51,394 nucleotides of DNA from NCBI RefSeq assembly GCF_009649845.1, contig NZ_WJIE01000028.1:1-51394 (forward strand), written 5' to 3'. The notes under the pieces are model-generated. The model made no database searches and was not told where the DNA came from. It saw only the letters and a program-made list of their open reading frames with translations. The DNA is from Polyangium spumosum. Lineage in GTDB: Bacteria > Myxococcota_A > Polyangia > Polyangiales > Polyangiaceae. A program made the position numbers and the translations under genes. How positions within the stretch are numbered: position 1 is the first letter of the stretch; every line of letters starts with the position of its first letter. Shown piece by piece: positions 4,726 through 28,133 of the stretch.

Positions 4726-4742
4726 GGCCGGAGGGAAGGACG

Positions 4743-8479: not shown

Positions 8480-8480
8480 T

Positions 8481-8939: not shown

Positions 8940-8945
8940 GCAAAA

Positions 8946-13666: not shown

Positions 13667-14202
13667 CTGCGGCGCGCGAGAAGGAGATCCTCCGGCGGAT
13701 CGTGGCGCAAGCGCTCCCGGTTCCGCTGCAATACCTGGCCGCGCATGATGCCACGGTCGTGGCGCAAGGGACCGACGGGACGCTCGATCTGCGCCTCGAT
13801 GCCGCGGACATGCCCGGTTTATCGGGCGTCCCGATATGGCTCGGTCTGCCGGGCGTGCGGGTCGAGGTGGCGAAGGGCGCGCGCGTGAAGGTCGGGTTTT
13901 CCGAAGGGGATCCGGCCAAGCCCTTCGCGGGGCTGTGGGAGACGGATGCGGCCATGATCCGGATCGTCCTCGGTGGCGGGACGAAGGCCGTTGCTCGGGT
14001 CGACGATTCCACGGATTCGGGGACGCTCGTCCTCCGGACGGTCACGGAACCGGCGGCCCTTTGCACGATCGAATGGAAGCCGCCCGGCTCGGCGGTGGCG
14101 ATCGTCCTCGGGGCCCTCGGCGTCCAGGTCTCCGTGCCTTCGGTGGTCGAGATCCCGATCCGGGGCATCATCACAAGCGGGCTCGCCTCGCTGCTGGGAT
14201 AG
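13663..14202 (+). CDS. Baseplate spike/puncturing protein (gpV/gp45-like OB fold)
   Basis: A 179-residue protein at the Mu gp45 position. An OB-fold-like N-terminal half (YLAAHDATVVAQGTDGTLDL, GVPIWLGLPGVRVEVAKGAR, RVKVGFSEGDPAKPFAGLW: the 'v.v.F..GDp..P...g' signature of baseplate assembly protein V) is followed by a beta-rich C-terminal stretch. It should form the trimeric membrane-piercing tip below the hub. Start ATG overlaps the hub stop. Confidence 0.8.
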   Translation: MTAAREKEILRRIVAQALPVPLQYLAAHDATVVAQGTDGTLDLRLDAADMPGLSGVPIWLGLPGVRVEVAKGARVKVGFSEGDPAKPFAGLWETDAAMIRIVLGGGTKAVARVDDSTDSGTLVLRTVTEPAALCTIEWKPPGSAVAIVLGALGVQVSVPSVVEIPIRGIITSGLASLLG

Positions 14203-14206
14203 GCCG

Positions 14207-14614
14207 ATGGCGATCGATTACGGCGACGATCTAAGCACCTTTGGCCCGGATGGGTCGATCGATATCGATTTCGATTCGGTCGTCGAAGGACCGCGCGTCG
14301 TCCTCGAGGCCGTAGCGCGCCGGTGGCTCATGAGCTCGGGTGCGTTGCCCTGGTCGCCCGCCGAGGGCGTCAACGTCCTCCGCATGATCAACGCGGATCC
14401 CTCGCCGACGGATCTCTATCGCCTCGGCGAGCTCCTCGAAGGTGAGGCGCTGCAAGAGCCGGGCGTCGTCGGGGCCTCCGTGCGCGCGGAGCTGCGGGGC
14501 GGCGTGCTCTTCATCGTGGGGCGCCTCGAGCTCGCCGAAGGAAGCTACCTCCTCACGGTCGAGACGGGCGAGGCGCGGCGCGTGTTGTTCCGCCCGCTCG
14601 GGGAGGCTGCGTGA
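14207..14614 (+). CDS. Baseplate wedge protein GPW/gp25 family
   Basis: A 135-residue protein starting MAIDYGDDLSTFGPDG. The ATG at 14207 is chosen because the homology with the other arm and the family N-terminus begin there; longer open frames extend into the spike gene. The gp25 core is seen in ALPWSPAEGVNVLRMINADP and the C-terminal VGRLELAEGSYLLTVETG. gp25-like proteins couple baseplate wedges to the sheath. TGATG links it to the next gene. The arms differ by a single residue. Confidence 0.8.
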   Translation: MAIDYGDDLSTFGPDGSIDIDFDSVVEGPRVVLEAVARRWLMSSGALPWSPAEGVNVLRMINADPSPTDLYRLGELLEGEALQEPGVVGASVRAELRGGVLFIVGRLELAEGSYLLTVETGEARRVLFRPLGEAA

Positions 14615-15759
14615 TGGGCGCGCCGTCGCTCGCGGCGCTGCTTCGGGCTCGCCGAAAGGACGTCATCTTCGAGGACCTGCTCGAAAAGGCCCACGGGCTC
14701 GGGCTGCGGGCGCGCGGCTGGGACTCGAAGAGGATCGGGCGCGTGCTCCTCGAAATCGAGGCGCAAACGGTCGAGGCGTGGGAGGCGGCGAGGATCGCAA
14801 TCACGCGCGGCGGATACCTCGGCGACGATGAAAGCGGGCCCTTCGGCGCGTGGCTCGATCTCGTCGCGCTCGGCTGGTTCCAAGAGCTGCGGCGCGAGGC
14901 CATTCCGACCGAGGGGCGGATGGTCCTCACGGAGTTTGCCGACGACTCGCTGCACGTCATCCAACCGGGCGAGCTCGCGGCGGTGTTCGGGCCCGAGCTC
15001 GCCGATCCTCTCCGGTACGTGAACGTTGACGGCGGGACGCTACCAAAGGGCGGAAGTCTCGCGCTCACCTTTCGGGCCGAGGCGCCCGGCGCGAGGTACA
15101 ACGTTCCTCCGTCGACCATTTCGTTTCTGAATACGCCGCTCCAGGGCGTGAGGATCGCCAATCCGGCCGATCCCGCGACGGGGACATGGATCACGCGGGC
15201 CGGCGCGGACGAAGAGAGCGATCCGAGCCTCCGCGCCAAGTGCCGGGATAAGTGGGGCTCCCTCGGCGCAGGTGGAAACCTCGCGGCCGTCCGCTATCGC
15301 ATTCGCAAGGCGGCCGAGCTCTTCGGGCTCTCGGTCTCGCGGTTCCGGGTTCGTGACGATAACCCGAACGGGCCCGGGAGCGTGGACGTCTATCTCGCGA
15401 ATCCGGCCGGGCCGGCGTCGGCGGCCGAGGTGAAGGCGGTTCGGGGCTACCTCGCGGGCCTGAAGGCCGTGGGGACGGGGCCGCTTCGGTGCTTCGCGGC
15501 AACGCTGCTCGAGGTGCCGATCGTCGCGGGCCTGCGAAACCCGACGAATCCGCACGCGGTGGCGGAGGCGATCGGGCGGCTCGTCGCCCTGCAATCGGAT
15601 TACCCTCTCGGCGAGGCCCTCTACCGCGCGCGGCTGATCGAAGAGCTCGTCGATGTCGCCAGCGGGACGGTGGATGTGCGGCTCGTGTCGCCCGCGCGGG
15701 ACGTCCTTCCGAAGGCGACGGACGCAATCGTCTTCGTCCCTCAACTCATCCTGCTTTGA
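14614..15759 (+). CDS. Baseplate J-like protein (Mu gp47-like)
   Basis: The 381-residue protein fits baseplate J/gp47: an N-terminal helical region (RRKDVIFEDLLEKAHGLGL), then GSLALTFRAEAPGARYNV and the characteristic GVRIANPADPATGTWITRAG ADEESDPSLRAK run, where 'G.d.E.d..lr.r' is the J-family signature. The C-terminal LEVPIVAGLRNPTNPHAV matches the usual beta/alpha tail. The ATG at 14614 shares bases with the preceding stop; a GTG one codon upstream is possible. J forms the wedge arms of the baseplate. Confidence 0.88.
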   Translation: MGAPSLAALLRARRKDVIFEDLLEKAHGLGLRARGWDSKRIGRVLLEIEAQTVEAWEAARIAITRGGYLGDDESGPFGAWLDLVALGWFQELRREAIPTEGRMVLTEFADDSLHVIQPGELAAVFGPELADPLRYVNVDGGTLPKGGSLALTFRAEAPGARYNVPPSTISFLNTPLQGVRIANPADPATGTWITRAGADEESDPSLRAKCRDKWGSLGAGGNLAAVRYRIRKAAELFGLSVSRFRVRDDNPNGPGSVDVYLANPAGPASAAEVKAVRGYLAGLKAVGTGPLRCFAATLLEVPIVAGLRNPTNPHAVAEAIGRLVALQSDYPLGEALYRARLIEELVDVASGTVDVRLVSPARDVLPKATDAIVFVPQLILL

Positions 15760-15773
15760 AGATCCGAGGGCGC

Positions 15774-16535
15774 ATGGCCGACGAGTTTCGAGAGCTACAG
15801 CACGGCAATATCCCCGACGGTGGACAATGGACCGACGCGGAATGGCTCCGCGGCCCGAACGCGCAAGCCTTCCTCGCTCTGCTCGGCGAGACGAAGGACG
15901 CCACGCTGGACGAGCTCCGCGCGGCGATCAAAGCGCGCTGGCCTGGGCTCGGTCCGCCCGATGCGCTGCGCTTGCAGGGGCAGGGCTTCGACGTCGAACG
16001 CTTCGAGGGCGAGACGGACGAAGCCTACCTGGCTCGGCTGGAACGGGCTTGGGAGACGCATCGAGGCGCGGGGACCTCGGGGGCCATCGAGGAAAGCCTT
16101 CGGGCCTTCGGGCTCCCGGATGTGCTCGTGATCGAGGATTGGCAAGGGCGGTTCGCGGAGGGGTCCTGGTATTCGCGGTTCTGGGTCGTCCTCGGCCCGG
16201 ATTTCGGGACGCTCGGGATCGAGCCGCTGCGAATGCCCTTCCTTCTGGGGGAACCAACGCTCGGGAGCTCGGCGACGGTGGCACAAGTGCGGGCCATCAA
16301 GCGGCAAGTCCTCAAGTGGAAGGACGCGCACGGCTTCCCCGTCCACATGATCCTTCGCTTCCGGGACGCTCCGATCCTCGGGCTCGGGCTCGAGCTCGGC
16401 TTCAAGCTCGGCGGCTCCGAAGGGAGCGGGGCGGCGTTCTGGCCGATCGGCGCGGCGAACATGCTCGGGGAAATGACGATGCCCTTCCGGCTCGGCGGCG
16501 GTTACGACATCGATGGAGGCGGTCATGGCTTATGA
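15774..16535 (+). CDS. Tail protein I-like baseplate protein (Mu gp48 position)
   Basis: A 253-residue protein after baseplate J. The middle has the helical 'DEAYLARLERAWETHRGAG' segment and IEESLRAFGLPDVLVIEDWQ, typical of tail protein I/gp48, which caps the wedge and binds fibres. The C-terminal part is Gly-rich with short beta repeats (LGLGLELGFKLGG; MPFRLGGGYDIDGGG), perhaps the fibre attachment site. Its 3' end overlaps the tail-tip gene by 11 bases. Confidence 0.75.
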   Translation: MADEFRELQHGNIPDGGQWTDAEWLRGPNAQAFLALLGETKDATLDELRAAIKARWPGLGPPDALRLQGQGFDVERFEGETDEAYLARLERAWETHRGAGTSGAIEESLRAFGLPDVLVIEDWQGRFAEGSWYSRFWVVLGPDFGTLGIEPLRMPFLLGEPTLGSSATVAQVRAIKRQVLKWKDAHGFPVHMILRFRDAPILGLGLELGFKLGGSEGSGAAFWPIGAANMLGEMTMPFRLGGGYDIDGGGHGL

Positions 16536-17568
16536 TTTCATGGGTTCCCTCGTCTTCCATGCCTTCGTTCGCATGCTGAACGACGGGGAGCTCGTCAATC
16601 ACGAATCCCTCTACCGTCTCGGTCTGGTCCGCCTCGCGGATCGGACGGCGTACCTACTCGATGCCATCGGTCGAGCGCGCGCGGAGCTCGCCAGCGTGGC
16701 GAACGGGACGCGGGCAACGCTCCTCGGCTCGAAGCGGCTGTCCGTGTTCACGCAATATGACGCCGAGACGAACCCTACCGGCGAGCTTGGGCCGGGGGGG
16801 CTGCTCGACGGGAAGACCCTGCTCCTCGGCGAGGACTCGGGGCCGGCGGAGCTGGTCCAACTCGCGGCGCCGATGACGCCTGCGGACATCGTGCAGCAGA
16901 TCAAGGCGGGCGCGCCCAAGAACAAGGACGCCGGGCTCGATGATGAATCCCGGCTCGTGCTCATGTCGAAGACGTTGGGCGCGAGCTCCTCGCTCTCGGC
17001 GAGCGGGACGGCGGCGGCGATCCTCGGCCTCCCGAGCGGAACGGCGACGGGGACGGGGGCGATCGATGATGGAGCGTCGCGGGTCGGCTTCTTCGAGCAT
17101 GGCGCGATCCCGACGGGAAACGTCCGCTCGGCCCTCGTCGGCCTGATCCAAGCGGTGGACAAGCTCGGGAAGACGAAGGCGGCGCTCGCGGGGGACACGT
17201 TCACAGGGCCGGTTACGTTCGCGGGGCCGGTCACGTTCAAATCAGGAACGCAGGATACGATCTTCGCGAATGCGCCGAATGCGGACGCGGTGCTCGATGC
17301 GAGCACGGCAAACGTCTTCCTCCTGCCCATGCTTACGGGAGCACGGACCTACACGCTCGCGGAACCCTCGGGGGGCGCGAGGCGCGTCCGCGTCGTGCGT
17401 ACTGCGATCTCGGGCTTCGGGGCGCTGTTCCGGCGGCAGGATAGCGCGATGGTCGGGTTTCCGCCGAACGGCCAAGCGTGGGCGGAGTTCACGCATTTCG
17501 ATGATGGGACGGGGGCGCGGTGGCGGCCTACGGCTTGGGGCGGGAGCGTTTCGCAGGTGATTTGGTAG
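16525..17568 (+). CDS. Tail-tip/fibre-like protein with one sheath-type module
   Basis: A 347-residue protein, last of the structural module. The start at 16525 (MAYDFMGSLVFHAFVRML) follows GGAGG by five bases. Residues about 90-175 form a module (LLDGKTLLLGEDSGPAEL to SGTAAAILGLPSG) resembling the two modules in the sheath. Residues about 210-235 contain a collagen-like or beta-repeat stretch (FTGPVTFAGPVTF) of the type often found in trimeric tail fibres. The C-terminus has ARTYTLAEPSGGARRVRVVR. It ends where homology between the arms ends. A host-recognition role is inferred from position and repeats. Confidence 0.65.
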   Translation: MAYDFMGSLVFHAFVRMLNDGELVNHESLYRLGLVRLADRTAYLLDAIGRARAELASVANGTRATLLGSKRLSVFTQYDAETNPTGELGPGGLLDGKTLLLGEDSGPAELVQLAAPMTPADIVQQIKAGAPKNKDAGLDDESRLVLMSKTLGASSSLSASGTAAAILGLPSGTATGTGAIDDGASRVGFFEHGAIPTGNVRSALVGLIQAVDKLGKTKAALAGDTFTGPVTFAGPVTFKSGTQDTIFANAPNADAVLDASTANVFLLPMLTGARTYTLAEPSGGARRVRVVRTAISGFGALFRRQDSAMVGFPPNGQAWAEFTHFDDGTGARWRPTAWGGSVSQVIW

Positions 17569-17974
17569 TCTCGCAGGACGAGTTCGGGCGCTTAGCCCGT
17601 GAAGGTTCTCTTTTCGGCCAGCACTTGCTCACGCGGCTCGTGCTCCACTGGACTTCAGACGCCATTCTGCGAACCGTCTGGTGGAACTCGTCCGTATGCG
17701 TCAACTCGTACCCGAGGAACAGATCTCTTCCCTGTTCGGACCGGGGCAGCATGCTCCAAAAGACGTAAATACGCCCATCACTGCCGATCGCAATCTCCCC
17801 GGTGACTGCCCACGCCAGTAAAGGCCAATGCCCGAGCCGCGCGAGTTCTCGCCACGTAATGGCAAACCCCATGAACCAACGTCGACCCCGCTTCGGGCTG
17901 CCACGCACGTAGACGCGCCCATCCGTCGCACAAACGAAGTCGCGCTTTGCCACATCATCCTGCGCGCTTGACAT
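17528..17974 (-). CDS. 148-aa protein with two 'DGxxYV' repeats, 3' end running into the phage fibre gene
   Basis: The protein has two related segments of about 45 residues. The first contains ATDGRVYVRG and FMGFAITWRE; the second contains IGSDGRIYVFWSML, GRDLFLGYELT and a following helix. The second closely matches the small proteins at 18290-18574 and 30232-30528 (GSDGLLYV, then GRxxFxGYxLT). After about residue 105 the frame continues without recognisable repeat into 41 bases of the opposite-strand tail-fibre gene, so the original C-terminus may have been replaced at the arm junction. It overlaps the XRE gene start by 20 bases. No counterpart lies at the right junction. The DGxxYV motif resembles a beta-hairpin repeat; function is unknown. 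Confidence 0.6.
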   Translation of the reverse strand: MSSAQDDVAKRDFVCATDGRVYVRGSPKRGRRWFMGFAITWRELARLGHWPLLAWAVTGEIAIGSDGRIYVFWSMLPRSEQGRDLFLGYELTHTDEFHQTVRRMASEVQWSTSRVSKCWPKREPSRAKRPNSSCETTKSPAKRSRPKP

Positions 17975-18248
17975 GGCTTCCCGGGTCGCTTTCTCGACCC
18001 CTCGACAATAGGGCCTCCAACCCGCTGGGAATCACGTCCTGCACCCGGACCCCGAGGCCTACGGCGATCTTCACGCAGGTTTCGACCGTGAGGTTGATGC
18101 GCCCATTTTCGATGCTGGACAAGGATCCCTTGCTCACGCCGCTCGTGTCGGCGAGCTTGGCCAACGACATCTTCCGGTTGAGGCGCAGTTCCCGGATGCG
18201 GTCGCCAAGGGGCCTGAGAAGCGGCTGGACGGCTTTTCGACGCGGCAT
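17955..18248 (-). CDS. XRE-family helix-turn-helix regulator
   Basis: A 97-residue protein with a complete Cro/CI-type HTH at residues about 14-70: LGDRIRELRLNRKMSLAKLA, then SGVSKGSLSSIENGRINLTV and a helix ending in LGVRVQDVI. The conserved Gln is replaced by Ser (SLAKLAD), which still fits the family. It lies downstream of the small 'GSDG' gene in the left cassette and overlaps the next gene by 20 bases. There is no homologue in the right cassette, so it may control only the left cassette or its lysogeny. Confidence 0.85.
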   Translation of the reverse strand: MPRRKAVQPLLRPLGDRIRELRLNRKMSLAKLADTSGVSKGSLSSIENGRINLTVETCVKIAVGLGVRVQDVIPSGLEALLSRGRESDPGSHVKRAG

Positions 18249-18289: not shown

Positions 18290-18574
18290 TCAACGCTTTC
18301 GCTTGCTCTTCGGGTTCGCGAGACGGACTTCCGCTGTGATGTTGAAGGCGATCTTGTGCATCGCGGAGGCGGCGCGCTGAGCCTCGGCGGGGGTCATTGC
18401 GTACCCCTGGAACATGCGGCGACCCTCGCGCTCCTCGGCGGTCAGGTGCTCCGCGTTCACGTAGAGAAGGCCATCGGAGCCAAGGGCGAGCTCGGTGAAC
18501 AACTCCTCCGGCTCCTTCTCCTCGGGGAACGTCAAGGGCGCCGCGTCGTCTTGCTGAATTTGCGTCTTTGCCAT
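18290..18574 (-). CDS. Small 'GSDGLLYV' protein (left copy)
   Basis: A 94-residue acidic-to-basic soluble protein. ATG at 18574 follows GAGAGGTGG. Centre: LFTELALGSDGLLYVNAEHL, then AEEREGRRMFQGYAMTPAEA and a helix to a Lys/Arg-rich end. It is the clear partner of 30232-30528 (about 55-60 % identical by eye) and related to each repeat of 17528-17974. It follows the winged-helix-like gene by 26 bases in the same direction. No signal peptide or membrane segment. Function unknown. Confidence 0.8.
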   Translation of the reverse strand: MAKTQIQQDDAAPLTFPEEKEPEELFTELALGSDGLLYVNAEHLTAEEREGRRMFQGYAMTPAEAQRAASAMHKIAFNITAEVRLANPKSKRKR

Positions 18575-18600: not shown

Positions 18601-19290
18601 TCAGAGCGGGCGGCGAAGCTCGATGTGCGTGAGACAGCCGCGGACGGGATTCGAGATCCCGAGCGAAACCTCGCGCGGGTCGTTGGTCTCCAAGCAATAG
18701 AGCGCAATCGCTTGTTGCTCCTCGAGCTGCTCGAGGGCGCGATTCAGGTCGGACCGGCGTACCTCGGGGATGCGCGCGCGAACCCACGCGATCGGCACGG
18801 GGTCGCGCGCGGTTGCGCAGAGGCGCGTGACTGCGAAATGGACGACCGCGAGGACGCGTTCATGACTGGGAAGACGCTGGACGAGCCGGGCTGTGTAGAG
18901 GACATGCTCCGCCGCGTCGAGATACGCGGGCGACAGTCGAAAGAGGTTGTGGAGAAGGATCTCCCCGATCTGCTCGTGGGAGAGTTCGCCTTTGCGATGG
19001 AACGGCGGCGGCGGAAGGACGCTCGCCAAGGGCGGTGGATTGAGGCGCGCGGCGAGGCGCTCGCGGGCGCGGCGAGGCGCTCCGGCGATGAATGCCAGGA
19101 TGGCGAACACGAAATCGAGGGCGCGGCGCGGCCAAGGGACCGGCGGAGCGCACTGCGGATCGAGCCAAGTGTCGCGCTTCTCCTCGGGCGGCGCGCTCGA
19201 ACGCACCCCCGAGGCCGGCGGCGCGACGCTCGACGCGCAAACCACGGTGGGATCGTCCTCGTCCATTGGATTGATCGGCTGCGCGGACAT
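18601..19290 (-). CDS. Winged-helix-like protein with N-terminal Pro-rich/hydrophobic region (left copy)
   Basis: A 229-residue protein. The start at 19290 (MSAQP) is fixed by GGAGG five bases upstream and by identity with the right copy; the open frame runs further up but without conservation. Residues 1-50 are acidic/Pro-rich. Residues about 52-75 are a hydrophobic helix flanked by Arg (WPRRALDFVFAILAFIAG), probably a membrane or membrane-associated segment. Residues about 110-229 are alpha-helical, ending in a winged-helix-like unit (WVRARIPEVRRSDLNRALEQ, LEEQQAIALYCLE). The C-terminus GCLTHIELRRPL is conserved. It may read the state of the membrane or bind DNA, but neither is shown. Confidence 0.75.
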   Translation of the reverse strand: MSAQPINPMDEDDPTVVCASSVAPPASGVRSSAPPEEKRDTWLDPQCAPPVPWPRRALDFVFAILAFIAGAPRRARERLAARLNPPPLASVLPPPPFHRKGELSHEQIGEILLHNLFRLSPAYLDAAEHVLYTARLVQRLPSHERVLAVVHFAVTRLCATARDPVPIAWVRARIPEVRRSDLNRALEQLEEQQAIALYCLETNDPREVSLGISNPVRGCLTHIELRRPL

Positions 19291-19516: not shown

Positions 19517-20563
19517 CTACGGTGTAGGCTTACAGGGGCCGTGCGTCGCAAACGCGGCGGCAAAGGCGCCCGTGAGCTCGCGGCGGAGCTTGTTCGCAGT
19601 TTCGCAGTCCCCCCGGGCCTCGGCCGCCTTGATGATCCGCGCGAGGTGGCGGTTCTTCGCGTTGATGTCCGCCTCCGGAGGGGCTCCGCCACGTGAGGGC
19701 GGAGCGGGCGCGGGGGCTGGCGCAACTTCGGGGCAAACAACCGCGCGGTCGTGCTCGAGGATCCCGCCCGGGGCGCCCGGCTCCCCCGAGGTCGCGACGG
19801 TGACGAAGATGGGCGAGAGTCGCGCGACGGCTTGGGGGCTGCGCATGAGAAGGAAGACGACAAGCCCCCCGGCGGCGGCGCTGGCGAGCATCGAAAGCAC
19901 GCGCCGAGCTCGCCCGCCAGGCTGCGGCGCAGGGGGCGGGACGGGGGCCGTGAAGGTGACCGGCGCCTCCGGCTTGTCCGTCGTTCCGCCCGCCTCCGCG
20001 GCGCCGTCGTGCATGTGGCTCTCGTCGATGAGCGGGAGGATCGTGCGGCTCGTGATCCCGCGCTTCCTGAACTCCTCGGCGAGCGTCGCCACGGCCTTCG
20101 TGAGCAAGTGATGCGCCGTGCTCATCGGCAACTTGAACTCCGCCGCGATCTCCTTGGTCGTCAGGTCGTCGACGAACCAAGCCCGCAAGATGGCGCGGCC
20201 GCGCGGGTCGTGCGTCTCGAGGCTCTCGAGGATGTCTTCGAGGTGTCGCTTGATCTCCGCGTCGTTGCACTCGTGCTCCGGGTTCGAGTCGGCGAGATCC
20301 TCCTCGGCGAGGCGAGGCGCCGCGCGCTCGTGGACGGCGCGCTTCTTCCAATAGTCGGCCGCTACCCTTTCGGCGATTCGCTGAAGGAACGTGCTCATGG
20401 CCCGGACCTCGTGGGTTTCGAGGTACTTGATCGCCTGCCGGTACACCTCTTGCCGCAAGTCCGGCACGTCGACGGCCGGGACGTGTTGCCTTCGCAGGCA
20501 GGCGTCGATGGCGTCCTGGTGGTTCGTCAGAAGGGCGAGCGGGTCCTGGTCACGTGCATCCAT
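19517..20563 (-). CDS. Membrane-tethered ECF-like sigma factor (left copy)
   Basis: A 348-residue protein. Residues about 1-175 form an RNA polymerase sigma-70 family unit: region 2-like DVPDLRQEVYRQAIKYLE through RVAADYW, and a region 4 helix-turn-helix (LTTKEIAAEFKLPMSTAHHL) followed by a long helix. Residues 176-220 are a Pro-rich linker. Residues about 221-241 are one membrane segment (VLSMLASAAAGGLVVFLLM). Residues 245-348 would lie outside the inner membrane, with three Cys conserved in the right copy (C277, C320, C344) and the conserved run NAKNRHLARIIKAAEARGDC. The sigma part would thus be held at the membrane until released, for instance by proteolysis. It follows the lipoprotein gene by 39 bases and probably shares its message. 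Confidence 0.85.
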   Translation of the reverse strand: MDARDQDPLALLTNHQDAIDACLRRQHVPAVDVPDLRQEVYRQAIKYLETHEVRAMSTFLQRIAERVAADYWKKRAVHERAAPRLAEEDLADSNPEHECNDAEIKRHLEDILESLETHDPRGRAILRAWFVDDLTTKEIAAEFKLPMSTAHHLLTKAVATLAEEFRKRGITSRTILPLIDESHMHDGAAEAGGTTDKPEAPVTFTAPVPPPAPQPGGRARRVLSMLASAAAGGLVVFLLMRSPQAVARLSPIFVTVATSGEPGAPGGILEHDRAVVCPEVAPAPAPAPPSRGGAPPEADINAKNRHLARIIKAAEARGDCETANKLRRELTGAFAAAFATHGPCKPTP

Positions 20564-20602
20564 GCTGCGGTTCCTCGTTCCTTCGGCAAACGCGGTGCGG
20601 GG

Positions 20603-21733
20603 TCACGGGCGGCAACACAAGGTCCGGGGGCCGACGAGGGCGACGTCGCCCGAAAGCTCGCCCCCGGAAGCCTCGCAAACGCCGGCATGGTAGGTCGGGG
20701 CCGTCGCTGCCTTCGCTGCGATTCCCTGGCCTTCTGGATTGATATCGAGGCAGGTCGGCTTGGTCGAAGAGGCGGACGCCTTGAACGTGTCGGCTGAGCA
20801 CGCGGCGTCCTCGTAGAGGGTGATCCACGCGGAACATGAGCTCCCCTCGGGCGCGCCGCACGTGCAAGGGGAGCACGTGCGATGGTCCTCGAATGCCTCG
20901 TAAACGATGACGCGGTCGATGTAATCCTCGGCCGGGCACGCGTGGATCCCGAGACGCTCGACGCAGTGGCGGAAGCCGTCCTGTTCGGCGGGAATACAAT
21001 GCTCGTCGGATTCGCACGCGCCGAACGCGCTCCCCTCACAGATCCGCGCGAGCTGGGAAAAAGAGGGCACGGGGGGCGGTACGGTCGTGCTGTTCGAGGC
21101 GTCGACAGCCATGCACGTCTCGTCCTCGACGCCAAGGGGGCCGAAGGTGACGGACTGCACGCACGGTACGCCGGGCCCGCAGGAAAGGTCCGCGGGGATG
21201 GCTCCCTCGGCGGTACAAGCGCCGTCCCAACCGGCCGGGGGGTTGGTCGGCGTCGCAATCGTCCCCTCGGGAGGCGTGCACGGGGCCGCGTGCGCGGTGA
21301 TGGTCGAGGGCAAGGTGCATGCTCCCGTCGACGGGCGGCACGAACACGGGCCGCACGGCTTCGGGGGGATCACGAGATCGGCGTACCAGGTGTACTGCTC
21401 GACGGGCGCGGCGTCCGGGCAGGCGGGCGCGGTGCCGTCGTTCGGGCCGATCCACGCGAGAAATGGGAAGGTAAACCCGGCGGGTCGGAACGGCGCGCAG
21501 TCTCCCAAACACTCGAAATTGCAGTCGTCCCCCGGGATGATACTTGGAACGTCGGCGTCCTCGTCACCGGAATCTGCGTCTGCGCCTGCGTCGGGCGCGC
21601 CTCCGCCTTCGCCGTCGTCGATGGGGCGAACGATGACCATGCCTTCGCTGCAACCGATGAAGCCGGCTGTCAAAACGGTGATGAAGGTGGCGGCGAGAAA
21701 GTGTTTCCAGGGTAGAACAGTGAGGCTCCTCAT
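20603..21733 (-). CDS. Cys-rich surface lipoprotein (left copy)
   Basis: A 376-residue exported lipoprotein. The start at 21733 gives a normal signal: MRSLTVLPWKHFLAATF..., hydrophobic core and lipobox FIGC followed by SEG. An acidic Asp/Gly/Ala-rich tether (residues about 35-60) leads to a body with roughly 25 Cys. Two similar cores occur: CGPCSC...C.LPSTIT...AP near residue 145, and CSPCTC...C...ITLYEDAAC near residue 305, suggesting an internal duplication of a disulfide module. The C-terminus is GPRTLCCRP. The longer open frame upstream overlaps the previous gene and is rejected. The start is 7 bases after the outer-membrane-like gene, so the two are co-transcribed. Confidence 0.82.
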   Translation of the reverse strand: MRSLTVLPWKHFLAATFITVLTAGFIGCSEGMVIVRPIDDGEGGGAPDAGADADSGDEDADVPSIIPGDDCNFECLGDCAPFRPAGFTFPFLAWIGPNDGTAPACPDAAPVEQYTWYADLVIPPKPCGPCSCRPSTGACTLPSTITAHAAPCTPPEGTIATPTNPPAGWDGACTAEGAIPADLSCGPGVPCVQSVTFGPLGVEDETCMAVDASNSTTVPPPVPSFSQLARICEGSAFGACESDEHCIPAEQDGFRHCVERLGIHACPAEDYIDRVIVYEAFEDHRTCSPCTCGAPEGSSCSAWITLYEDAACSADTFKASASSTKPTCLDINPEGQGIAAKAATAPTYHAGVCEASGGELSGDVALVGPRTLCCRP

Positions 21734-21740
21734 TATATGA

Positions 21741-22796
21741 TTACTCCATGAGGTTCGCGGACACATTGACGCCAATAGCAATGCGGAGGACCGGTGATCG
21801 CCAGAAGGTGGTTTCTCCTGTGGTTTGCGACGGGTCGAGCGCTACAGCGATGCTTCGAAGCTGCATGTTCACGTCCACGTAGCCGTGCAACCTGAAGCGT
21901 TCGGAGAGCCGGATCCGGCCGTCTATCCGACCCCCGAAACCTACCGAGAAGGCATCCGAGGCCGTCACGTCGTAGGCCGGACCCAGGTCGAATTGAAGCT
22001 GGCTGAAGCTGACTACGCCGCACGCGTCGACGTGCTTCAACGCAAGGCAAGGGAGCACGGATCCTGTCCAAGCCACGGTCCGGCCTGGCAAGTCCCTATC
22101 TCCGATGCCGGACGCTGGGGTGATCAAGCCGCGGACCTCCGCGAAGGCGGCGAAAAACGGCCATCGTACGCCAAGCAAGCCGCTTCCTCCCACTGCGACG
22201 CCGGGCAAGCCATAGAGCGACACAGCCGGGCCGGCGGCGGCTTCTACCTCGAAGGGTGGTTCCTCCCCGTTGGGCGTCGAGCTTGTGACGGACGCTGGCG
22301 CTCGTGGGACGAGGGCCGCTAGGGACTCGGGCGGGCGAAAGGCGAAGGTGTGAAGCTCGGGCGGCTTGACCTCGATCTCGGGCGGCGCCGCGAGGTGCGG
22401 CGGCGGGGCCTCGCTGCTCCACGCGCGCGCACCGAGCCGCGCCTCGACGAGGGCCGCCACATCGTAGGCGAGCTCGCGGCAAGTCCCTTGCGGATCCGTT
22501 CGGCCATGCCAGGGCTCGACCCCCTCGGCGGGATCGGGTCCCCAAATCTCCGCCTCGAAGCCCTTCCCGACGCGTTGGACCTCGATCCGGACGACGGGCG
22601 AGACGTCGGTCCGGACAACCAAGTATCCGAATTCGCCCGCGAGGAGAAGCGCGAGCTCCTCGGCGTCGGGGCACCCCTCGGGCGGCGTCGGCGCGTACTC
22701 CAGGCGAAAGGCGATCTTCGGTTTCGCCGCGAGGGCAGGCGGCGCGAGCGTGAGCCCGCAAAACACGGCGGCGAGGCTGGCGAGGCGGCGCGGCAT
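21741..22796 (-). CDS. Exported outer-membrane-like protein (left copy)
   Basis: A 351-residue protein with a signal peptide (MPRRLASLAAVFCGLTLAPP, cleavage after ALA). The N-terminal domain (residues about 25-130) is a small alpha/beta unit, including the Cys pair GCPDAEEL and QGTCRELAYD. A Pro-rich linker (130-175) precedes a C-terminal region rich in alternating Gly/aromatic strands (AVGGSGLLGVRWPFFAAFAE; FSVGFGGRIDGRIRLSERF), which looks like a small outer-membrane beta-barrel. No ribosome site precedes the ATG; see the promoter at 22809-22838. First gene of the left signalling cassette. The exact family is unknown to me. Confidence 0.78.
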   Translation of the reverse strand: MPRRLASLAAVFCGLTLAPPALAAKPKIAFRLEYAPTPPEGCPDAEELALLLAGEFGYLVVRTDVSPVVRIEVQRVGKGFEAEIWGPDPAEGVEPWHGRTDPQGTCRELAYDVAALVEARLGARAWSSEAPPPHLAAPPEIEVKPPELHTFAFRPPESLAALVPRAPASVTSSTPNGEEPPFEVEAAAGPAVSLYGLPGVAVGGSGLLGVRWPFFAAFAEVRGLITPASGIGDRDLPGRTVAWTGSVLPCLALKHVDACGVVSFSQLQFDLGPAYDVTASDAFSVGFGGRIDGRIRLSERFRLHGYVDVNMQLRSIAVALDPSQTTGETTFWRSPVLRIAIGVNVSANLME

Positions 22797-22808: not shown

Positions 22809-22838
22809 AAGCTACGCTCGGTCTTCGCGGGGATGCAA
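22809..22838 (-). promoter_or_regulatory. Promoter of left cassette, nearly leaderless
   Basis: Reading the minus strand: -35 TTGCAT (22833-22838), 18-base spacer, -10 TAGCTT (22809-22814), then only 12 bases to the ATG. GGCAAACGG lies just upstream. The right cassette has the same boxes and spacing (25895-25924), so the elements are conserved between otherwise diverged genes. Predicted transcript start is about 5-7 bases before the ATG, with no Shine-Dalgarno sequence. Confidence 0.6.
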
Positions 22839-22959
22839 GCGCCGTTTGCCGGGGCCACCTTCCCGCGGGGGAAACGCGAGAAGTCCCGAGGTGGGTTGCG
22901 GTCGAGAGGTTCGTCCGGGGCGCTGTCTGCGCGCGCTCCCCTCCCCTACCCCACGGGCT

Positions 22960-23544
22960 TCAGAACTCCGCCACGGCCTTCCGCGTCTTCGCGACGAGGG
23001 GCTCCGGCACGGCTTGCCCGCCGAGGTTCATCATCACCACGAAGCACCACGAACGCTCCGAACCCACGAAGACGAGCTCCTTCTCTTTCTTTCGCGGCTC
23101 GACGGCGCGGTATTCCTCTTCCGTGCGGCACTGCGGGACCATGACGGTATTGTCGACGGACAGGCCAAACCCGTTGGCCGTCTGAATGCACGTTCCCGCG
23201 CCGTGGGCCGTCCGGAGCTTGTCGCAAAGCGTGCGCGCGTCGCGCGCGGGGCTCGTTGTGGTAGTCGAAACTTCGGTCGCGGCCGGCTCGGTCTTGCCCT
23301 TGCTGGAAGCTCCTCCCACCACGACGAGCACACACGAGCCAAGCCAGATGAAGCCGCCCGCGAGGACCAGGGCCCACGGGATGGGGGTGGACTTCTGCGG
23401 CGGCGGGGGCGCGGGGCCTGCCTGCGCGCAGGCCGGGTGCATCGGTCCGGCGGGAAAGGCGACGTACGCGCCGTAAACAGGGTGGCGACACCCAAGGCAT
23501 GTTCCGACGAGCGGCGGGTTGGGAGGGGGGCCGTAGGGCGTCAT
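22960..23544 (-). CDS. Hypothetical membrane-anchored protein with Cys pair ribbon and extracytoplasmic domain
   Basis: About 194 residues from the ATG at 23544; a GTG six codons upstream is also possible. The N-terminus is Pro-rich with CLGCRHPVYG ... HPAC, a small zinc-ribbon-like unit. A membrane helix (IPWALVLAGGFIWLGSCVLV) follows at residues about 65-90. The rest (about 105 residues, with RTLCDKL, GTCIQTA, PQCRTEEE, SWCFVVMM) is an outside domain with four Cys. No counterpart is found in the right half. The gene is flanked by a direct repeat (GGTTCGTCCGGG at 22908 and 23568). Function unknown. Confidence 0.65.
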   Translation of the reverse strand: MTPYGPPPNPPLVGTCLGCRHPVYGAYVAFPAGPMHPACAQAGPAPPPPQKSTPIPWALVLAGGFIWLGSCVLVVVGGASSKGKTEPAATEVSTTTTSPARDARTLCDKLRTAHGAGTCIQTANGFGLSVDNTVMVPQCRTEEEYRAVEPRKKEKELVFVGSERSWCFVVMMNLGGQAVPEPLVAKTRKAVAEF

Positions 23545-23687
23545 GCCTCCGGAGCTTACCACGGTGGGTTCGTCCGGGCACGTTTGCTGCGCGTGGTCGT
23601 GAGGGGGAGCCGTGCAGGGGACGCGAGGAGCGCGGGCCTAGGAACTGTGATCTGTGTTGCGTGTCCGGCCCTGCGTTAGGCAGACCG

Positions 23688-25391
23688 TCACGCAGCGAAG
23701 CCCATCCGCGCGGAGGCGACGCGGGCCAGATCGAGCGAAAACGCGGCGTTTTGTGGATGTCTTAATGTTTCGAATCCCGCTGGGGACGCTGAGTTGCCAA
23801 GTTCGATACCGAACAGTCTGCCAGGGGCCGACACACCGACCAGCCGCATCCGACGCTCTCCGGGCGTCGGGAGCGGCGTGGCGGTCAGACCGTTCGGGAA
23901 GAGCTTCTGGATGAACCGCCGCGCTTCGACCGGGTTCCGCCCGATCGCCTCCCGCAGCTCTTCCAGCCGCCGCCGGGCGTCGACCTCGAGCCGACGGACC
24001 TCGAGGTCCATCGCGGCAGGAACCGTCTTGGCCGTCCGGAGCCGCGCTTCGAGCGCCGTCAACTCCTTCTGACGCTCGCCCACCTTCGCGAAGAAGACGC
24101 CCCGCGCCTCTGCCGGCGCTTCGAGCGCGAGCTCCGCGAACCTGTCTACCTCGGCGCGCAGCTTCGCCGCTTGGCGCTCCAAAGCCTCGACCTCGTCGCC
24201 CTGCGACTTCGCCCGAGCCTCGAGCCGTCCCCGAAGCGCCGCGAGTAACCGACCGAGGAGCTCCTCCGTCATGACCTCCCGCGAGACCCACGCGAGCACA
24301 GCCGTGTCGACCGTCTCGACCTGGCGCCGCAAGGTCGACGCGCAGACCTGCCCGCCCCGATCGCGACGACGGCAGCACGTGTAGACCTTGATCGGATCGT
24401 ACCCCTTCTTGCCGTTGACGACCGAGAGCGGACCCCCGCACTCCCCGCAGCGCAGGATCCCCGAGAGTAGGTAGCTCGTCGGCCTTCCGCCGTCCGTCGA
24501 GTGCCGCTCGTTCCGCTCGATCCGCGCCTGGACGGCTTGCCAGAGCTCTTCAGGCACGATCCGAAGGTGCGGAGCATCGACGACGACCACCTCGTGAGCG
24601 TGCGTCTTCGTCCGGACCTTCGTCCCGGCCTTGTACGTCTTGTGCGTGTGCCCCCACTCGATGCGCCCGACGTAGAGCGGGCGCCGCAGCATCGCGTGGA
24701 TTGCAGCAGGCGCCCAGGCCCCGAGCCCATCCTTGCGCACCCGAGGAGGCGTGATCCCGCGCTCCGTCAGATCCTTCGCCACGGTTCGCAGACCTTCGCC
24801 GTCCGCGTAACGTTCGAAGATTTCCCGCACGATCGCCGCTTGCTCGGGATCGACCTCTCGCACGCGCCCCGCCCCGTCCGCCGCCGGAACGTTCCGGTAG
24901 CCGTACACCGCGCCGCCCGCCACGAGGCCCCGCCGGGCCTTGCGCTCGACGCTCTCCCGCGTGCGGCTCGCGATGCGCCGCCGTTCGCTCTCCGAGGCAA
25001 ACCCACGCATGACCGCGACGAGCCGCGTCATCTCGTTGTCGAGGACCATCTCGTCGCCGGTCGAGTAGAAGAGGATCTTGACCCCGGCATCCGTCAGCTC
25101 TTGCGCGAACGTGGCCACGCGGAGCATGTCGCCGCCGAGCCGGGAATCGTCGCGAACGATGACGACGTCGAACTGACCCGCGAGCGCGGCATCCCGCAGC
25201 GCCGCGAACCCTCGCCGCCGGTGGGGAGCGAACTCCGCGCGGCTCGCCGTGTCGGTGAATTCGTGCGCCATGTCGAGCGAGTACCCGCGCTTCAGGGCGT
25301 AGCGCCTCGCGTTGTCGAGTTGGGTGTCGAGGCTCTCGACTTGATGCTCGTCCGTCGAGCGACGCGCGTAGATTGCAGCTCGGACCGTCAT
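23688..25391 (-). CDS. Large serine recombinase (site-specific integrase)
   Basis: A 567-residue protein. The catalytic domain, residues 1 to about 150, has YARRSTDEHQ (nucleophile Ser12), VIVRDDSRLGGD (catalytic Arg and Asp) and ASESERRRIASRTRESV. A recombinase domain follows at residues about 165-285 (REVDPEQAAIVREIFERYAD; MLRRPLYVGRIEWGH). The zinc ribbon has RCGECGGPLS and CCRRRDRGGQVC near residues 320-350. A long coiled coil (about 385-470) is typical of large serine integrases. The last 34 codons (SPAGFETLRHPQN...) read through a tRNA-Glu-like 3' end and may come from the attachment site. The ATG overlaps the stop of a small upstream ORF (ATGA). It lies close to the centre of the big inverted repeat. 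Single integrase, resolvase or inverter activity is possible. Confidence 0.9.
   Translation of the reverse strand: MTVRAAIYARRSTDEHQVESLDTQLDNARRYALKRGYSLDMAHEFTDTASRAEFAPHRRRGFAALRDAALAGQFDVVIVRDDSRLGGDMLRVATFAQELTDAGVKILFYSTGDEMVLDNEMTRLVAVMRGFASESERRRIASRTRESVERKARRGLVAGGAVYGYRNVPAADGAGRVREVDPEQAAIVREIFERYADGEGLRTVAKDLTERGITPPRVRKDGLGAWAPAAIHAMLRRPLYVGRIEWGHTHKTYKAGTKVRTKTHAHEVVVVDAPHLRIVPEELWQAVQARIERNERHSTDGGRPTSYLLSGILRCGECGGPLSVVNGKKGYDPIKVYTCCRRRDRGGQVCASTLRRQVETVDTAVLAWVSREVMTEELLGRLLAALRGRLEARAKSQGDEVEALERQAAKLRAEVDRFAELALEAPAEARGVFFAKVGERQKELTALEARLRTAKTVPAAMDLEVRRLEVDARRRLEELREAIGRNPVEARRFIQKLFPNGLTATPLPTPGERRMRLVGVSAPGRLFGIELGNSASPAGFETLRHPQNAAFSLDLARVASARMGFAA
23769..23789 (+). 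other. tRNA-Glu-like 3' end, candidate att core
   Basis: The sequence TTCGAATCCCGC followed by TGGGGACGC has the T-loop, the 3' T-stem strand, the acceptor 3' strand and the discriminator base of bacterial tRNA-Glu. The 5' half of the tRNA is absent: the bases before 23769 do not pair with the T-stem. It lies inside the last codons of the recombinase. Such partial tRNA 3' ends are common attachment cores. A short stem (23738-23743 with 23747-23752) lies next to it. Confidence 0.5.
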
Positions 25392-25651: not shown

Positions 25652-25938
25652 GGTGCCGTGGAGGAAGGTACCTACTGCCAGGCGCACTTTGCACGCGGAA
25701 ACGACGCGGAGATAGGACAATTTCTGACATATCATCCGCTCGGATCCTGTGCGTACCGTCCGCCGCAGTGGGCCCGCCATCCAGGGCCCTGGCTCGTGTG
25801 CCCGCTCGTGTTGTCGTAGACGAACTCGCCAACGGTCCGAACGTCGGAAACCGCCTTCAATAACCGGCAGACGGCGCTCCCGGGCAAACGGGGCTTGCAT
25901 CCCGGCGCGAACGGAGCGTAGCTTCGAGTCGTTCCGAC
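25652..25938. other. Central intergenic region between recombinase unit and right cassette
   Basis: 287 bases with no convincing gene. It holds the divergent control regions: the leader of the recombinase unit (an AT-rich stretch at about 25715-25740 could hold its promoter), a perfect 12-bp palindrome CCAGGGCCCTGG at 25781-25792, and the right cassette promoter near its right edge. Confidence 0.5.
25895..25924 (+). promoter_or_regulatory. Promoter of right cassette, nearly leaderless
   Basis: -35 TTGCAT (25895-25900), 18 bases, -10 TAGCTT (25919-25924), 14 bases to the ATG at 25939, preceded by GGCAAACGG. It matches the left promoter in both boxes and in spacing. There is no Shine-Dalgarno sequence in the predicted leader of about 7 bases. 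Confidence 0.6.
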
Positions 25939-27000
25939 ATGCCTCGCCGTCTCGCCAGTCTCGCCGCCGTGCTCTGCGGGCTCACCCTCGCGCCGCCCGC
26001 CCTCGCGGCGAAGCCGAAGATCGCGTTCCGCCTGGAGTACGCGCCGCCGACGTCGCCCGAGGATTGCCCCGATGCCGAGGAGCTCGCCTTCATGCTCGCG
26101 GGCGAATTCGGGTACATGGTTGTCAGGACCGACGTCTCGCCGGTGGTGAGGGTCGAGGTCCGCCGCGTCGGGAGGGCCTTCGAGGCGGAGCTTTGGGGAC
26201 CGGATACCGAAGGCGGCGTGGAGGCGTGGCACGGCAAGACGGACACGCAGGGGACGTGCCGCGAGCTCGCGTACGACATCGCCGCCCTCGTCCGAGCGCG
26301 CCTCGGACCGGGCGCGTGGGGACGCGAGGACCCGCCGGCCCACCTCGCCGCGCCACCCGAGATCGAGGTCCAGCGGCCCGAGCTCCGCCCCTTCGCCCTT
26401 CGCCTGCCCGAGTCGCTCGCGTTCCTGGCCCCACGCATGCCGGCGTCCTTGGAGAGCTCGACACCGAACGCGGAGGGATCACCCGTTCTTATCGAGGCAG
26501 GGCTCGGAGCCGCGGTGTCCCCGTACGGCTTGCCGAGCGTGGCAGTCGGCGGGAACGCGTTCCTCGGGGTTCGCTGGCGCCGGTTCGCCGCATTCGTCGA
26601 GGCCCGGGGGCTCATCACGCCCGCATCCGGGATCGGCGAGACGGAGATTCCCGGCCGGGCCACGATCTGGACGGGTTCGGCCATGCCCTGCCTTGCCTTG
26701 AAGTATGTGGATGGATGCGCCGTCGTTTCGCTGAGTCAGCTTCAGATCGATCTCGGGCATGGGCGCGCGGTCACGGGCTCGGATGGCTTTTCGGTTGGGT
26801 TCGGTGGTCGAGTCAACGGCAAGCTCTCCCTATCGGAACGGTTTTCCTTACTCGGATATGCGGACTTCAACATGCAACTACGGAGCATCGCGCTCGAATT
26901 GGCTCCGCAGACGTCGACTTCGGGAGCGGTCCCCGACTGGCGATCACCGCTCCTTCGCATCACGCTAGGCGTTGCTGTCACAGCAAGTTTCTCTGATTGA
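25939..27000 (+). CDS. Exported outer-membrane-like protein (right copy)
   Basis: The 353-residue paralogue of 21741-22796, roughly two-thirds identical by eye. Signal peptide MPRRLASLAAVLCGLTLAPP and the N-terminal domain (RLEYAPPTSPEDCPDAEELA, GTCRELAYDIAALV) are well conserved. The linker and the C-terminal barrel-like strands (FSVGFGGRVNGKLSLSERFS) vary more, mostly in loops, as would be expected if the two proteins recognise different things. First gene of the right cassette; the lipoprotein follows after 11 bases. Confidence 0.78.
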   Translation: MPRRLASLAAVLCGLTLAPPALAAKPKIAFRLEYAPPTSPEDCPDAEELAFMLAGEFGYMVVRTDVSPVVRVEVRRVGRAFEAELWGPDTEGGVEAWHGKTDTQGTCRELAYDIAALVRARLGPGAWGREDPPAHLAAPPEIEVQRPELRPFALRLPESLAFLAPRMPASLESSTPNAEGSPVLIEAGLGAAVSPYGLPSVAVGGNAFLGVRWRRFAAFVEARGLITPASGIGETEIPGRATIWTGSAMPCLALKYVDGCAVVSLSQLQIDLGHGRAVTGSDGFSVGFGGRVNGKLSLSERFSLLGYADFNMQLRSIALELAPQTSTSGAVPDWRSPLLRITLGVAVTASFSD

Positions 27001-27011
27001 GGTAGGCAACT

Positions 27012-28133
27012 ATGAGGACCAAGATTCATTGGCAACGATCCTTGCTGAAGGGGGCGTTTGTTGTAGCCCTGGTTTCCTCCCTCGTCGCCTGTAGCGAGGG
27101 TAAGATTTATTATATTGAACTCGACGCGGGCGAAGGCGGAGCTTCAGCCGACGCGGGCGCAGATTCCGGCGACGAGGACGCCGACGTTCCAAGTACCGAC
27201 GGGGGGGACGACTGTGATTTTACCTGCCTGGGGGTTTGCGCGCCCTTTCGCCCTGGGGATTTCTCCCTCCCCGTGCTCGCCTACATCGGGCCCGACGACG
27301 ACACGGCGCCCGACTGCCCCGACACGGCGCCCGTGGAGCAATTCATCTGGCACGACGACATCCAGATCCCCCCGAAGCCCTGCGGACCTTGTTCCTGCGG
27401 TCCTCCCAAGGGCTTCTGCGCCCTACCCTCGACCATCACCGCGTACGCGGCCCCTACCTCGCCTCCCGAGGGTACGATCGCGACGCCGACGAACCCGCCG
27501 GAGGATTGGGACGGTTCCTGCGCCGCGGATGGGGCGATCCCCGCGGGCCTCGCTTGCGGCGCGTCCCTCCCTTGCGTTCAATCGATCATGATCGGACCGC
27601 TCGAGATCACGGACGAGTTTTGCGTTGCCGTGGACGGCGCCGGAGGCCCGACCGAGCCGACCCCCGCGCCCACTTGGGGAACCATCGCCCGGATCTGCGA
27701 AGGCAGCACGTTCGGCCAGTGTTTGGCGGATGAGCACTGCGTTCCCGCGCCGGTGGGCAGCTTTCGGCAGTGCGTCCAGCGCCAGGGGATCCACGACTGT
27801 CCCGCCGAGGAATACACCGAGCGGCACGTTTTCTTCGAAGCGTTCGAGGATGAGCGCACGTGTTCGCCCTGCACGTGCGGGGCGCCCACGGAAAGCTACT
27901 GCCAAACCTCGGTTTCCTTGTACCCCGACGCCAGTTGTTCCGCGCCCACGTTCACGGTATCCGCGTCCTCCATCGAGCCGACGTGGTTCGACGTGAACCC
28001 CAAGGGCCAGGCCATCGGCGCGAAGACCGCGACTGTGCCGACGTACCACGCCGGGATTTGCCATGCCCAAGGGGGCGAGCTCGATGGAGACGTGCAGCTC
28101 CTCGGGCCGCGGACCTTGTGTTGTCGTCCTTGA
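27012..28133 (+). CDS. Cys-rich surface lipoprotein (right copy)
   Basis: A 373-residue lipoprotein. Signal MRTKIHWQRSLLKGAFVVAL with lipobox LVAC, then SEG; start preceded by GAGGTAGG. The acidic tether (DAGEGGASADAGADSGDEDA) and all main Cys motifs of the left copy recur (CGPCSCGPPKGFC; CSPCTCGAPTESYC; final GPRTLCCRP). The second disulfide core and its surroundings are more divergent. It precedes the sigma gene by 39 bases, the same distance as in the left cassette. Confidence 0.82.
   Translation: MRTKIHWQRSLLKGAFVVALVSSLVACSEGKIYYIELDAGEGGASADAGADSGDEDADVPSTDGGDDCDFTCLGVCAPFRPGDFSLPVLAYIGPDDDTAPDCPDTAPVEQFIWHDDIQIPPKPCGPCSCGPPKGFCALPSTITAYAAPTSPPEGTIATPTNPPEDWDGSCAADGAIPAGLACGASLPCVQSIMIGPLEITDEFCVAVDGAGGPTEPTPAPTWGTIARICEGSTFGQCLADEHCVPAPVGSFRQCVQRQGIHDCPAEEYTERHVFFEAFEDERTCSPCTCGAPTESYCQTSVSLYPDASCSAPTFTVSASSIEPTWFDVNPKGQAIGAKTATVPTYHAGICHAQGGELDGDVQLLGPRTLCCRP

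Follow-up and report, generated by a model that had tools for sequence, protein, structure and literature searches.

What would a sigma factor with a predicted membrane anchor do at the end of a prophage, in one run with genes for an exported barrel-like protein and a cysteine-rich lipoprotein? The question is raised by positions 19517-22796 of a 51,394-nucleotide stretch of DNA from Polyangium spumosum, a soil bacterium that lives as a predator (contig NZ_WJIE01000028.1, our contig C28, below "the window"), part of a 10.76-Mb genome. A preliminary description had read the three genes as a candidate surface-signalling system in a prophage operon. Their coordinates are exact. On the minus strand, at the end of a contractile-tail prophage, lie genes for an exported protein of 351 aa (21741-22796), a lipoprotein of 376 aa with 28 cysteines (20603-21733) and an extracytoplasmic function (ECF) sigma factor of 348 aa (19517-20563), in the order barrel-lipoprotein-sigma. 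The window contains another prophage, in inverted orientation, with a diverged copy of the three genes, whose sigma factor is 58-59% identical to the first. The observation itself is confirmed and the reading first given to it is partly supported: the three genes form a recurrent module with a promoter-like element of its own, and we give about even odds to the reading that it serves autoregulated surface signalling, with sigma factor and regulator fused in one protein.

Sequence and structure analysis of the three proteins

Profile searches place sigma2 at about residues 8-74 and sigma4 at about 95-167 of the sigma factor. The protein passes TIGR02937 (49.6 bits, curated cut-off 42.9; 49.1 bits for the copy in the right-hand prophage) and lies just above the cut-off of Pfam Sigma70_r4 (24.3 vs 24.1). 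A family profile matched Escherichia coli sigma-E in the PDB over both domains (1or7, query 5-156, E=4.2e-6), and Foldseek with the AlphaFold2 (AF2) model returned the same protein as top PDB match (1or7_B, E=2.9e-4). Single sigma domains gave 4lup (TMt 0.69) and 3hug (TMt 0.83), neither significant by E-value. For the whole model the mean predicted local distance difference test score (pLDDT) is 56 and the predicted template modelling score (pTM) 0.29; by part, pLDDT is about 57-86 in sigma2 and sigma4 and 77-86 in most of a predicted three-helix tail at 297-341. Sigma4 is followed by a linker of about 45 residues, predicted to be disordered, and then by one helix at 217-241, within which the hydrophobic segment VLSMLASAAAGGLVVFLLM (222-240) is conserved among relatives. 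A sigma factor, a membrane helix and a periplasmic part are thereby predicted on one chain, as the preliminary description had held. The hydrophobic helix is present in all seven close copies, each of which has a tail of about 100 residues. Of the cysteines in the extracytoplasmic domain described earlier, C277 (VCPE) alone is invariant across the seven sequences. In the L083 paralogue the domain scores differ, with region 2 passing (29.4) and r4_2 (20.1) missing its cut-off of 25.7.

The exported protein has a signal-like N-terminus, a predicted N-terminal alpha/beta domain (about 25-125), a Pro-rich linker and eight predicted strands at 183-349 that would form a barrel. Its structure model is weak (pLDDT 50.9, pTM 0.38), and the barrel fold is a tentative prediction. 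Foldseek returned 615 matches; the 50 listed are all outer-membrane barrels by title, and among them none has E<0.001. By sequence the PDB gave only two weak, unrelated matches (E 0.46 and 0.95), and neither a TonB-receptor nor an STN match was found in Pfam or NCBIfam.

The lipoprotein of the left copy has the lipobox FIGC, in which F is unusual; several relatives have LVAC, LIGC or LSGC, and 31 of 51 family members match the lipobox pattern. It has no match in Pfam, NCBIfam or the PDB and a single weak one in PHROGs, of unknown function (E=0.034). The two halves of the right-copy lipoprotein show a weak likeness to each other (E=1e-4). SitA-type polymorphic toxins of myxobacterial prophage-like elements were considered for the lipoprotein and dropped, as it has no toxin-family match in Pfam or NCBIfam. 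Both upstream genes are in keeping with the exported barrel-like protein and lipoprotein first proposed.

The unit continues on the same strand with two further conserved genes, here called wh (18601-19290, 229 aa), winged-helix-like by eye only and without a family match, and sm (18290-18574, 94 aa). Searches of Pfam, NCBIfam, PHROGs and PADLOC returned nothing meaningful for barrel protein, lipoprotein or wh, and PADLOC had no match for sm either. No anti-sigma gene was recognisable among the module proteins scanned (Pfam, PHROGs, NCBIfam), which agrees with the surface-signalling-like layout without a separate anti-sigma factor that had been described.

A large module family within one genome

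Because generic ECF hits alone say little, we used the lipoprotein as the anchor of a census on six-frame translations of the genome, with the density of sigma70-family hits as the chance model. The census found 26 lipoprotein relatives. A module-type sigma factor is encoded at 21 of these loci, in 20 cases at most about 1 kb from a barrel or lipoprotein gene and at the C3 locus 2.7 kb from the barrel gene, where chance predicts 1.5-1.8 sigma genes near the 26 loci (8-10-kb windows) or 2.2-2.7 (12-15-kb windows). A barrel relative accompanies 24 of the 26, two of them weak and at contig ends. Since the genome has 78 sigma70-family hits, 67 of them above cut-off, about a quarter (21/78) are module sigma factors. 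Five lipoprotein loci have no module sigma (C5:402k, C34, C25, C10 and C1:1.2M): C34 and C25 sit at contig ends, an ordinary ECF with a 4-aa extension lying about 9 kb away at C25, and C10 and C1:1.2M have the lipoprotein alone.

Two gene orders prevail, barrel-lipoprotein-sigma-wh-sm and sigma-barrel-lipoprotein-wh, and in the sigma-first order the barrel protein has a longer N-terminal part. A reversed gene or another order is found at C43, C27, C12, C6:317k and C5:168k. Only 4 of the 21 sigma-bearing copies are shown at the ends of this prophage type. Given this and the size of the paralogous family, "prophage system" is too narrow a name: the prophage location in the preliminary description holds and the confinement to prophages does not.

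The extension of the sigma factor distinguishes the family. All 21 module sigma factors continue for 127-249 aa beyond the TIGR02937 match, with a hydrophobic stretch (best 19-residue window 1.18-2.96). Among 20 high-scoring non-module sigma hits, a set that leaves out three hits of that score range, extensions measure 4-40 residues and none has such a stretch. In 20 further, mostly lower-scoring hits there were two long hydrophobic extensions and one of 74 residues without a hydrophobic stretch, making 2 of 40 controls, taken from 57 non-module hits. The two, C5:83730 (L146) and C10:28309 (L152), have extensions of 254 and 179 aa with hydrophobic stretches of 1.61 and 2.16; barrel or lipoprotein genes were looked for nearby and none was detected. 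The tether is a strong but not an absolute hallmark of module sigma factors.

Occurrence in other genomes and in phages

Relatives among named genomes are all from Polyangium, at five loci. A scan of 289 genomes of the class, in which the six best candidates per genome were scored, gave a lipoprotein match at E<=1e-5 in 71, many of them weak and partial. At 20 loci picked by hand, mostly from the high-scoring part of that match list, we found a sigma gene in 16 (missing in L098, L099, L111 and L112) and a barrel gene in 17 (missing in L110, L111 and L112). Three tandem lipoprotein relatives lie near the sigma gene of L110 (genome G238). For the weaker loci L025-L041, seen with short flanks only, neither sigma nor barrel was detected, and the triplet is therefore established in no more than a few genera, all from a single family.

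In Polyangium sp. y55x31 and P. fumosum the order recombinase-tmA-barrel-lipoprotein-sigma-wh-sm-xre-tail fibre repeats the layout of the left prophage of the window, and the triplet is also present in genome G270. A metagenomic viral contig, whose terminase is 86% identical to that of the window, carries barrel-lipoprotein-sigma next to a gene for an XRE repressor; the module lies on that side of the structural genes where the terminase is. The module thus recurs in other Polyangium genomes, in G270 and in a metagenomic phage. Sequence searches with lipoprotein and sigma did not find the module among INPHARED phages, and one with the lipoprotein only found nothing among PLSDB plasmids. Scans of IMG/VR with lipoprotein, barrel and sigma alignments were likewise empty, which does not show absence because the terminase scan did yield the viral contig with the module.

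A conserved promoter-like element upstream of the barrel gene

At 22811-22850 (minus strand), directly before the barrel gene, lies a conserved promoter-like element, GGCAAACGGCGCTTGC overlapping CTTGC-N18-CGTAGC; its counterpart in the second module is at 25883-25922 (plus strand). Nine prophage-type copies have GGCAAACGGnGCTTGC in common at this place, with GTA or a near match downstream, and in the metagenomic phage we read GGGCAAACCTCCCTTGC-N18-CCTA by eye. The 16-mer of the element occurs four times without mismatch in the 10.76 Mb, each time before a prophage module.

The pattern reaches beyond the prophage copies. CTTGC-N18-SGTA precedes 15 of 23 barrel-first modules vs 0 of 115 control upstream regions, the controls being genes near non-module sigma hits, as called by a script of ours. 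Among the 23 modules several are closely related, and judged by eye the upstream regions amount to about five independent contexts. Where the upstream DNA differs, barrel-first modules still have the pattern at about the same distance, -40 to -50. In a mixed set that includes sigma-first modules the looser pattern TTG-N18-20-SGTA occurs in 10 of 28, against a shuffled mean of 0.6. The element could be either a promoter dedicated to the module sigma or an unusual housekeeping promoter with an operator. We favour the former because the control genes are without the element. Genome-wide, GCTTGC-N18-SGTARC has 12 matches, four of them the prophage modules, and the reversed-pattern control has 40; as the matches do not exceed this control, we claim no wider regulon. 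Upstream of sigma-first modules (e.g. L071, L073, L074, L080) AAAATCG and GTTACC runs recur by eye, with no shared element established.

Co-divergence of the module proteins and exchange of the barrel domain

We compared pairwise identities over nine prophage-type modules. Sigma identity correlates with that of the lipoprotein body (r=0.97) and of the barrel protein's N-domain (0.95), and with that of the barrel domain at 0.60. The sigma tail correlates with the sigma domains at 0.91 and with the lipoprotein at 0.89. Altogether, sigma, lipoprotein body, barrel N-domain and sigma tail co-vary with r between 0.89 and 0.97 (five pairs computed), whereas the correlations of the barrel domain are weaker, 0.47-0.63 (four pairs).

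A swap is directly visible between the right prophage and the C1 copy. Their sigma domains are 94%, barrel N-domains 84% and lipoprotein bodies 85% identical, vs 48% for the barrel domain and 42% for the lipoprotein signal and linker; nucleotide identity falls at about 26351-27100 and then recovers. Synonymous divergence (dS) is 0.19 in the barrel N-domain and 1.79 in linker plus barrel, which points to replacement of the barrel by recombination and not to fast selection. In a second case, the P. fumosum copy fumA (L089), the barrel domain is 56-57% identical to the C21 group vs 42-45% to the left window copy or L088. In the pairs that we compared, selection on each of the three proteins is purifying, with ratios of non-synonymous to synonymous divergence (dN/dS) of 0.17-0.44, and of 0.27-0.37 for the sigma domains. 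If the signalling reading holds, the exchange of barrels while the core stays constant suggests that inputs can be exchanged too.

A proposed mechanism and its rivals

These data are consistent with the following mechanism. The barrel protein would sit in the outer membrane with its N-terminal domain in the periplasm and the lipoprotein as its envelope partner, while a single helix would hold the sigma factor at the inner membrane and leave the three-helix tail periplasmic. In the resting state the tether would bar the sigma domain from core RNA polymerase or make it inefficient. A change of state in barrel or lipoprotein, upon a ligand, damage, misassembly or contact, would be relayed to the tail and would free or activate the sigma domain, most likely via regulated proteolysis. 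The active sigma would bind core and transcribe its own operon from the CTTGC-N18-SGTA promoter, and the module, expressed in the lysogen, would be cargo carried by prophages. The topology, the contact between the parts, the signal, the release step, core binding, the use of the promoter and expression in the lysogen are all inferred. For Fox signalling it is reported that the anti-sigma factor is bound at its C-terminal domain, and protected there, by the N-terminal domain of the receptor (PMC11637429). If the module works alike, the sigma tail would be held by the barrel N-domain, and a swappable barrel would set the input.

Several observations weigh against this mechanism. The score for Pfam Sigma70_r2, 18.6, is below the curated cut-off of 24. 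A strict transmembrane test (an uncharged 17-21-mer, KD>=1.5) detects a clear segment in only 13 of the 21 module sigma factors of this genome; across genomes 29 of 41 sigma-family proteins pass (shuffled mean 4.0), in a set with one ordinary ECF and with some loci entered more than once. Barrel and lipoprotein genes occur without a sigma gene at C5:402k, L098 and L099, and an ordinary ECF without a long extension (C10:316407, L145) has a barrel relative nearby. The strict promoter pattern is missing from 8 of the 23 barrel-first modules (L098 and L091, both near misses, and L101, L103, L070, L083, L084 and L082), most sigma-first modules are without the element, and the looser TTG-N18-20-SGTA occurs in 15 of 23 modules but also at 2 of 115 control genes. 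Read as TTGCnn-N18-TAnnnT, the element could be a housekeeping promoter. Correlated divergence also results from shared ancestry; what informs here is that the barrel domain departs from it.

ToxR-type regulators act while membrane-anchored, and the module sigma could do the same: the tether would place transcription near the envelope, with neither sensing nor release. The hydrophobic helix and tail kept in all seven close copies are as this predicts, and no dedicated protease or anti-sigma family was recognised among the module proteins scanned. The disordered linker of about 45 residues, however, suits release as well, and the divergence of the tail, which tracks that of sigma and of lipoprotein (r 0.91 and 0.89), suggests a partner; we regard permanent anchoring as unlikely. 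Of similar standing, and in our view also rather improbable, is a surface-antigen or exclusion cassette. Here barrel and lipoprotein would themselves act, by receptor masking, superinfection exclusion, kin marking or surface defence, the sigma factor would serve as positive feedback, and the prophage would carry the whole as lysogenic-conversion cargo. The location of the module at one end of the prophage, flanked by recombinase and tail fibre, its position beside the XRE repressor in the metagenomic phage, the recombinational swapping of the barrel domain and the restriction of the exact 16-mer to the prophage modules' own operons all fit such a role, as do the two co-resident prophages with near-identical tail genes and different module alleles. 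Some phages are known to exclude others by means of surface lipoproteins (PMC3952083). It leaves the tethering of the sigma factor unexplained, though, only a minority of the copies is shown in prophages, and PADLOC recognised none of barrel protein, lipoprotein, wh and sm.

Two further explanations fare worse. The low Pfam scores, with region 2 under and region 4 barely over the curated cut-offs, might indicate an ECF-derived DNA-binding membrane protein or a decoy with no sigma function left. The TIGR02937 score above cut-off, a profile match in the PDB to sigma-E (1or7) that spans both domains and purifying selection on the sigma domains make this very improbable. Least credible is that the genes are chance neighbours without a functional link, or that the inverted prophage pair is an assembly artefact. 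The window contig stops within, or close to the end of, both prophages, as repeats often cause. Yet most parts of the two arms differ by 4-6% and the modules far more, so this is not one sequence read twice, and for the gene order chance is refuted by the census, in which co-localisation is far above expectation, and by the same order in other Polyangium genomes and the metagenomic phage.

The surface-signalling module with a sigma-fused regulator may belong to a new class, in which swappable small barrels with a cognate periplasmic domain, a lipoprotein and a tethered sigma factor form some twenty channels per genome, shuttled between hosts and prophages, so that sensor and output are phage-borne. 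This wider proposal is possible but tentative. If true, roughly one in four sigma70-family hits of a Polyangium genome comes from a single type of module not found described, a phage carries a private transmembrane signalling channel, and the module offers a clean test case for the activation of membrane-tethered sigma factors.

Comparison with known systems

The closest precedent is IutY of Pseudomonas putida (ECF243), a sigma/anti-sigma hybrid of cell-surface signalling that works with an outer-membrane receptor and in which truncation of the periplasmic part activates the fused sigma (PMC5411451, PMC8999054; truncation, PMC5411451). Like IutY, the module sigma is predicted to combine an ECF sigma domain, a membrane segment and a periplasmic regulatory part on one chain. 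Unlike IutY, that part is a predicted three-helix tail without a FecR match, the barrel is small, with eight predicted strands and no TonB-receptor match, and the gene run includes a Cys-rich lipoprotein, has many paralogues per genome and is phage-carried. If the signalling reading is right, the module would add another way, unrelated to IutY, of fusing a sigma factor to a transmembrane regulator. The layout also recalls FecA/FecR/FecI and FoxA/FoxR/FoxI, in which, by the portion of the report seen (PMC11637429), a barrel with an N-terminal periplasmic domain and an inner-membrane regulator lead to an ECF output that includes the receptor gene; unlike these, the module proteins scanned include no separate anti-sigma factor, TonB receptor, STN or FecR domain (Pfam, NCBIfam).

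Fusion to a C-terminal membrane helix, predicted for the module sigma, is also found in ECF48, ECF52 and ECF53 of Actinobacteria (e.g. SCO4117), for which proteolytic activation has been proposed; the parts of the sources available to us mention no barrel or lipoprotein partner (PMC5826349, PMC8999054). In contrast to the ECF52 type, the module sigma has no zinc-finger or carbohydrate-binding match in Pfam and comes from a different phylum. ECF216, ECF220, ECF276 and ECF270 are listed with regulatory extensions and model members from Myxococcus, Sorangium (ECF220 and ECF276) and Anaeromyxobacter, and barrel/lipoprotein modules are not mentioned for them in the text available to us (PMC8999054). 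The module sigma may already belong to a named group such as these.

Lambda Lom is a prophage surface moron with a small outer-membrane barrel, which the barrel protein is predicted to resemble. The lipoprotein has its parallel in the Ltp-type exclusion lipoproteins (PMC3952083), likewise prophage-borne. Unlike either, the module is coupled to a tethered sigma factor and has many paralogues for which no prophage location is shown. Among the matches listed in our search of the open-access literature we found no description of the module, which as a whole appears undescribed there. The earlier claim of novelty therefore survives for the whole and not for a sigma-regulator fusion as such, since IutY is known.

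Prophage context and neighbouring genes

The window halves are inverted copies of one contractile-tail prophage, with long blocks 94-96% and shorter blocks 74-90% complementary; compared with the long blocks, the two modules are mostly 49-86% identical in 150-bp windows. PHROGs identified portal, terminase, head, sheath, tape measure and baseplate genes. The left prophage (1-17568, plus strand) runs from portal to tail fibre, the contig beginning inside it, and the right one (30534-51394, minus strand) from tail fibre to terminase, the contig ending near it. In both, the module lies on the strand opposite to the tail genes. The second module comprises genes for a barrel protein of 353 aa (25939-27000), a lipoprotein of 373 aa (27012-28133), a tethered sigma factor of 346 aa (28173-29213), wh (29531-30208) and sm (30232-30528), all on the plus strand.

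The left module lies inside its prophage and outside the structural genes, in the order recombinase-tmA-module-xre-tail fibre, which two other Polyangium genomes share. The large serine recombinase (23688-25391, minus strand) is the probable integrase of the left prophage; the P. fumosum match to it is without a middle part. Its assignment to the right prophage was rejected, as the gene order of L088 and L089 places it in the left one. Recombinase position varies, and in the C1 copy a 45% identical recombinase is divergent from the barrel gene. Left-type copies also include three minus-strand genes: one between recombinase and module for a 200-aa protein with a hydrophobic stretch (22960-23562), 84-88% identical at the same place in the two other genomes; one at the end of the left prophage for an XRE-type helix-turn-helix regulator of 97 aa (17955-18248); and a 148-aa gene between module and tail fibre (17528-17974), also kept in P. 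fumosum. The 148-aa product partly resembles the sm protein, and similar small proteins are encoded near many modules.

Three minor observations concern other places. On C36 (L143) a lipoprotein fragment lies at a contig end near an ordinary sigma70-family gene without a long extension. Two modules adjoin genes of antibacterial toxin/immunity type: the one on C33 (L071) those for DUF2169, a PAAR-like toxin with a colicin-type DNase and a SUKH protein, the one at C21:95k (L009) that for a SUFU-domain protein. In the right prophage, a 755-aa protein (45947-48214) has an N-terminus of portal type, whereas its C-terminal third matches an exonuclease family.

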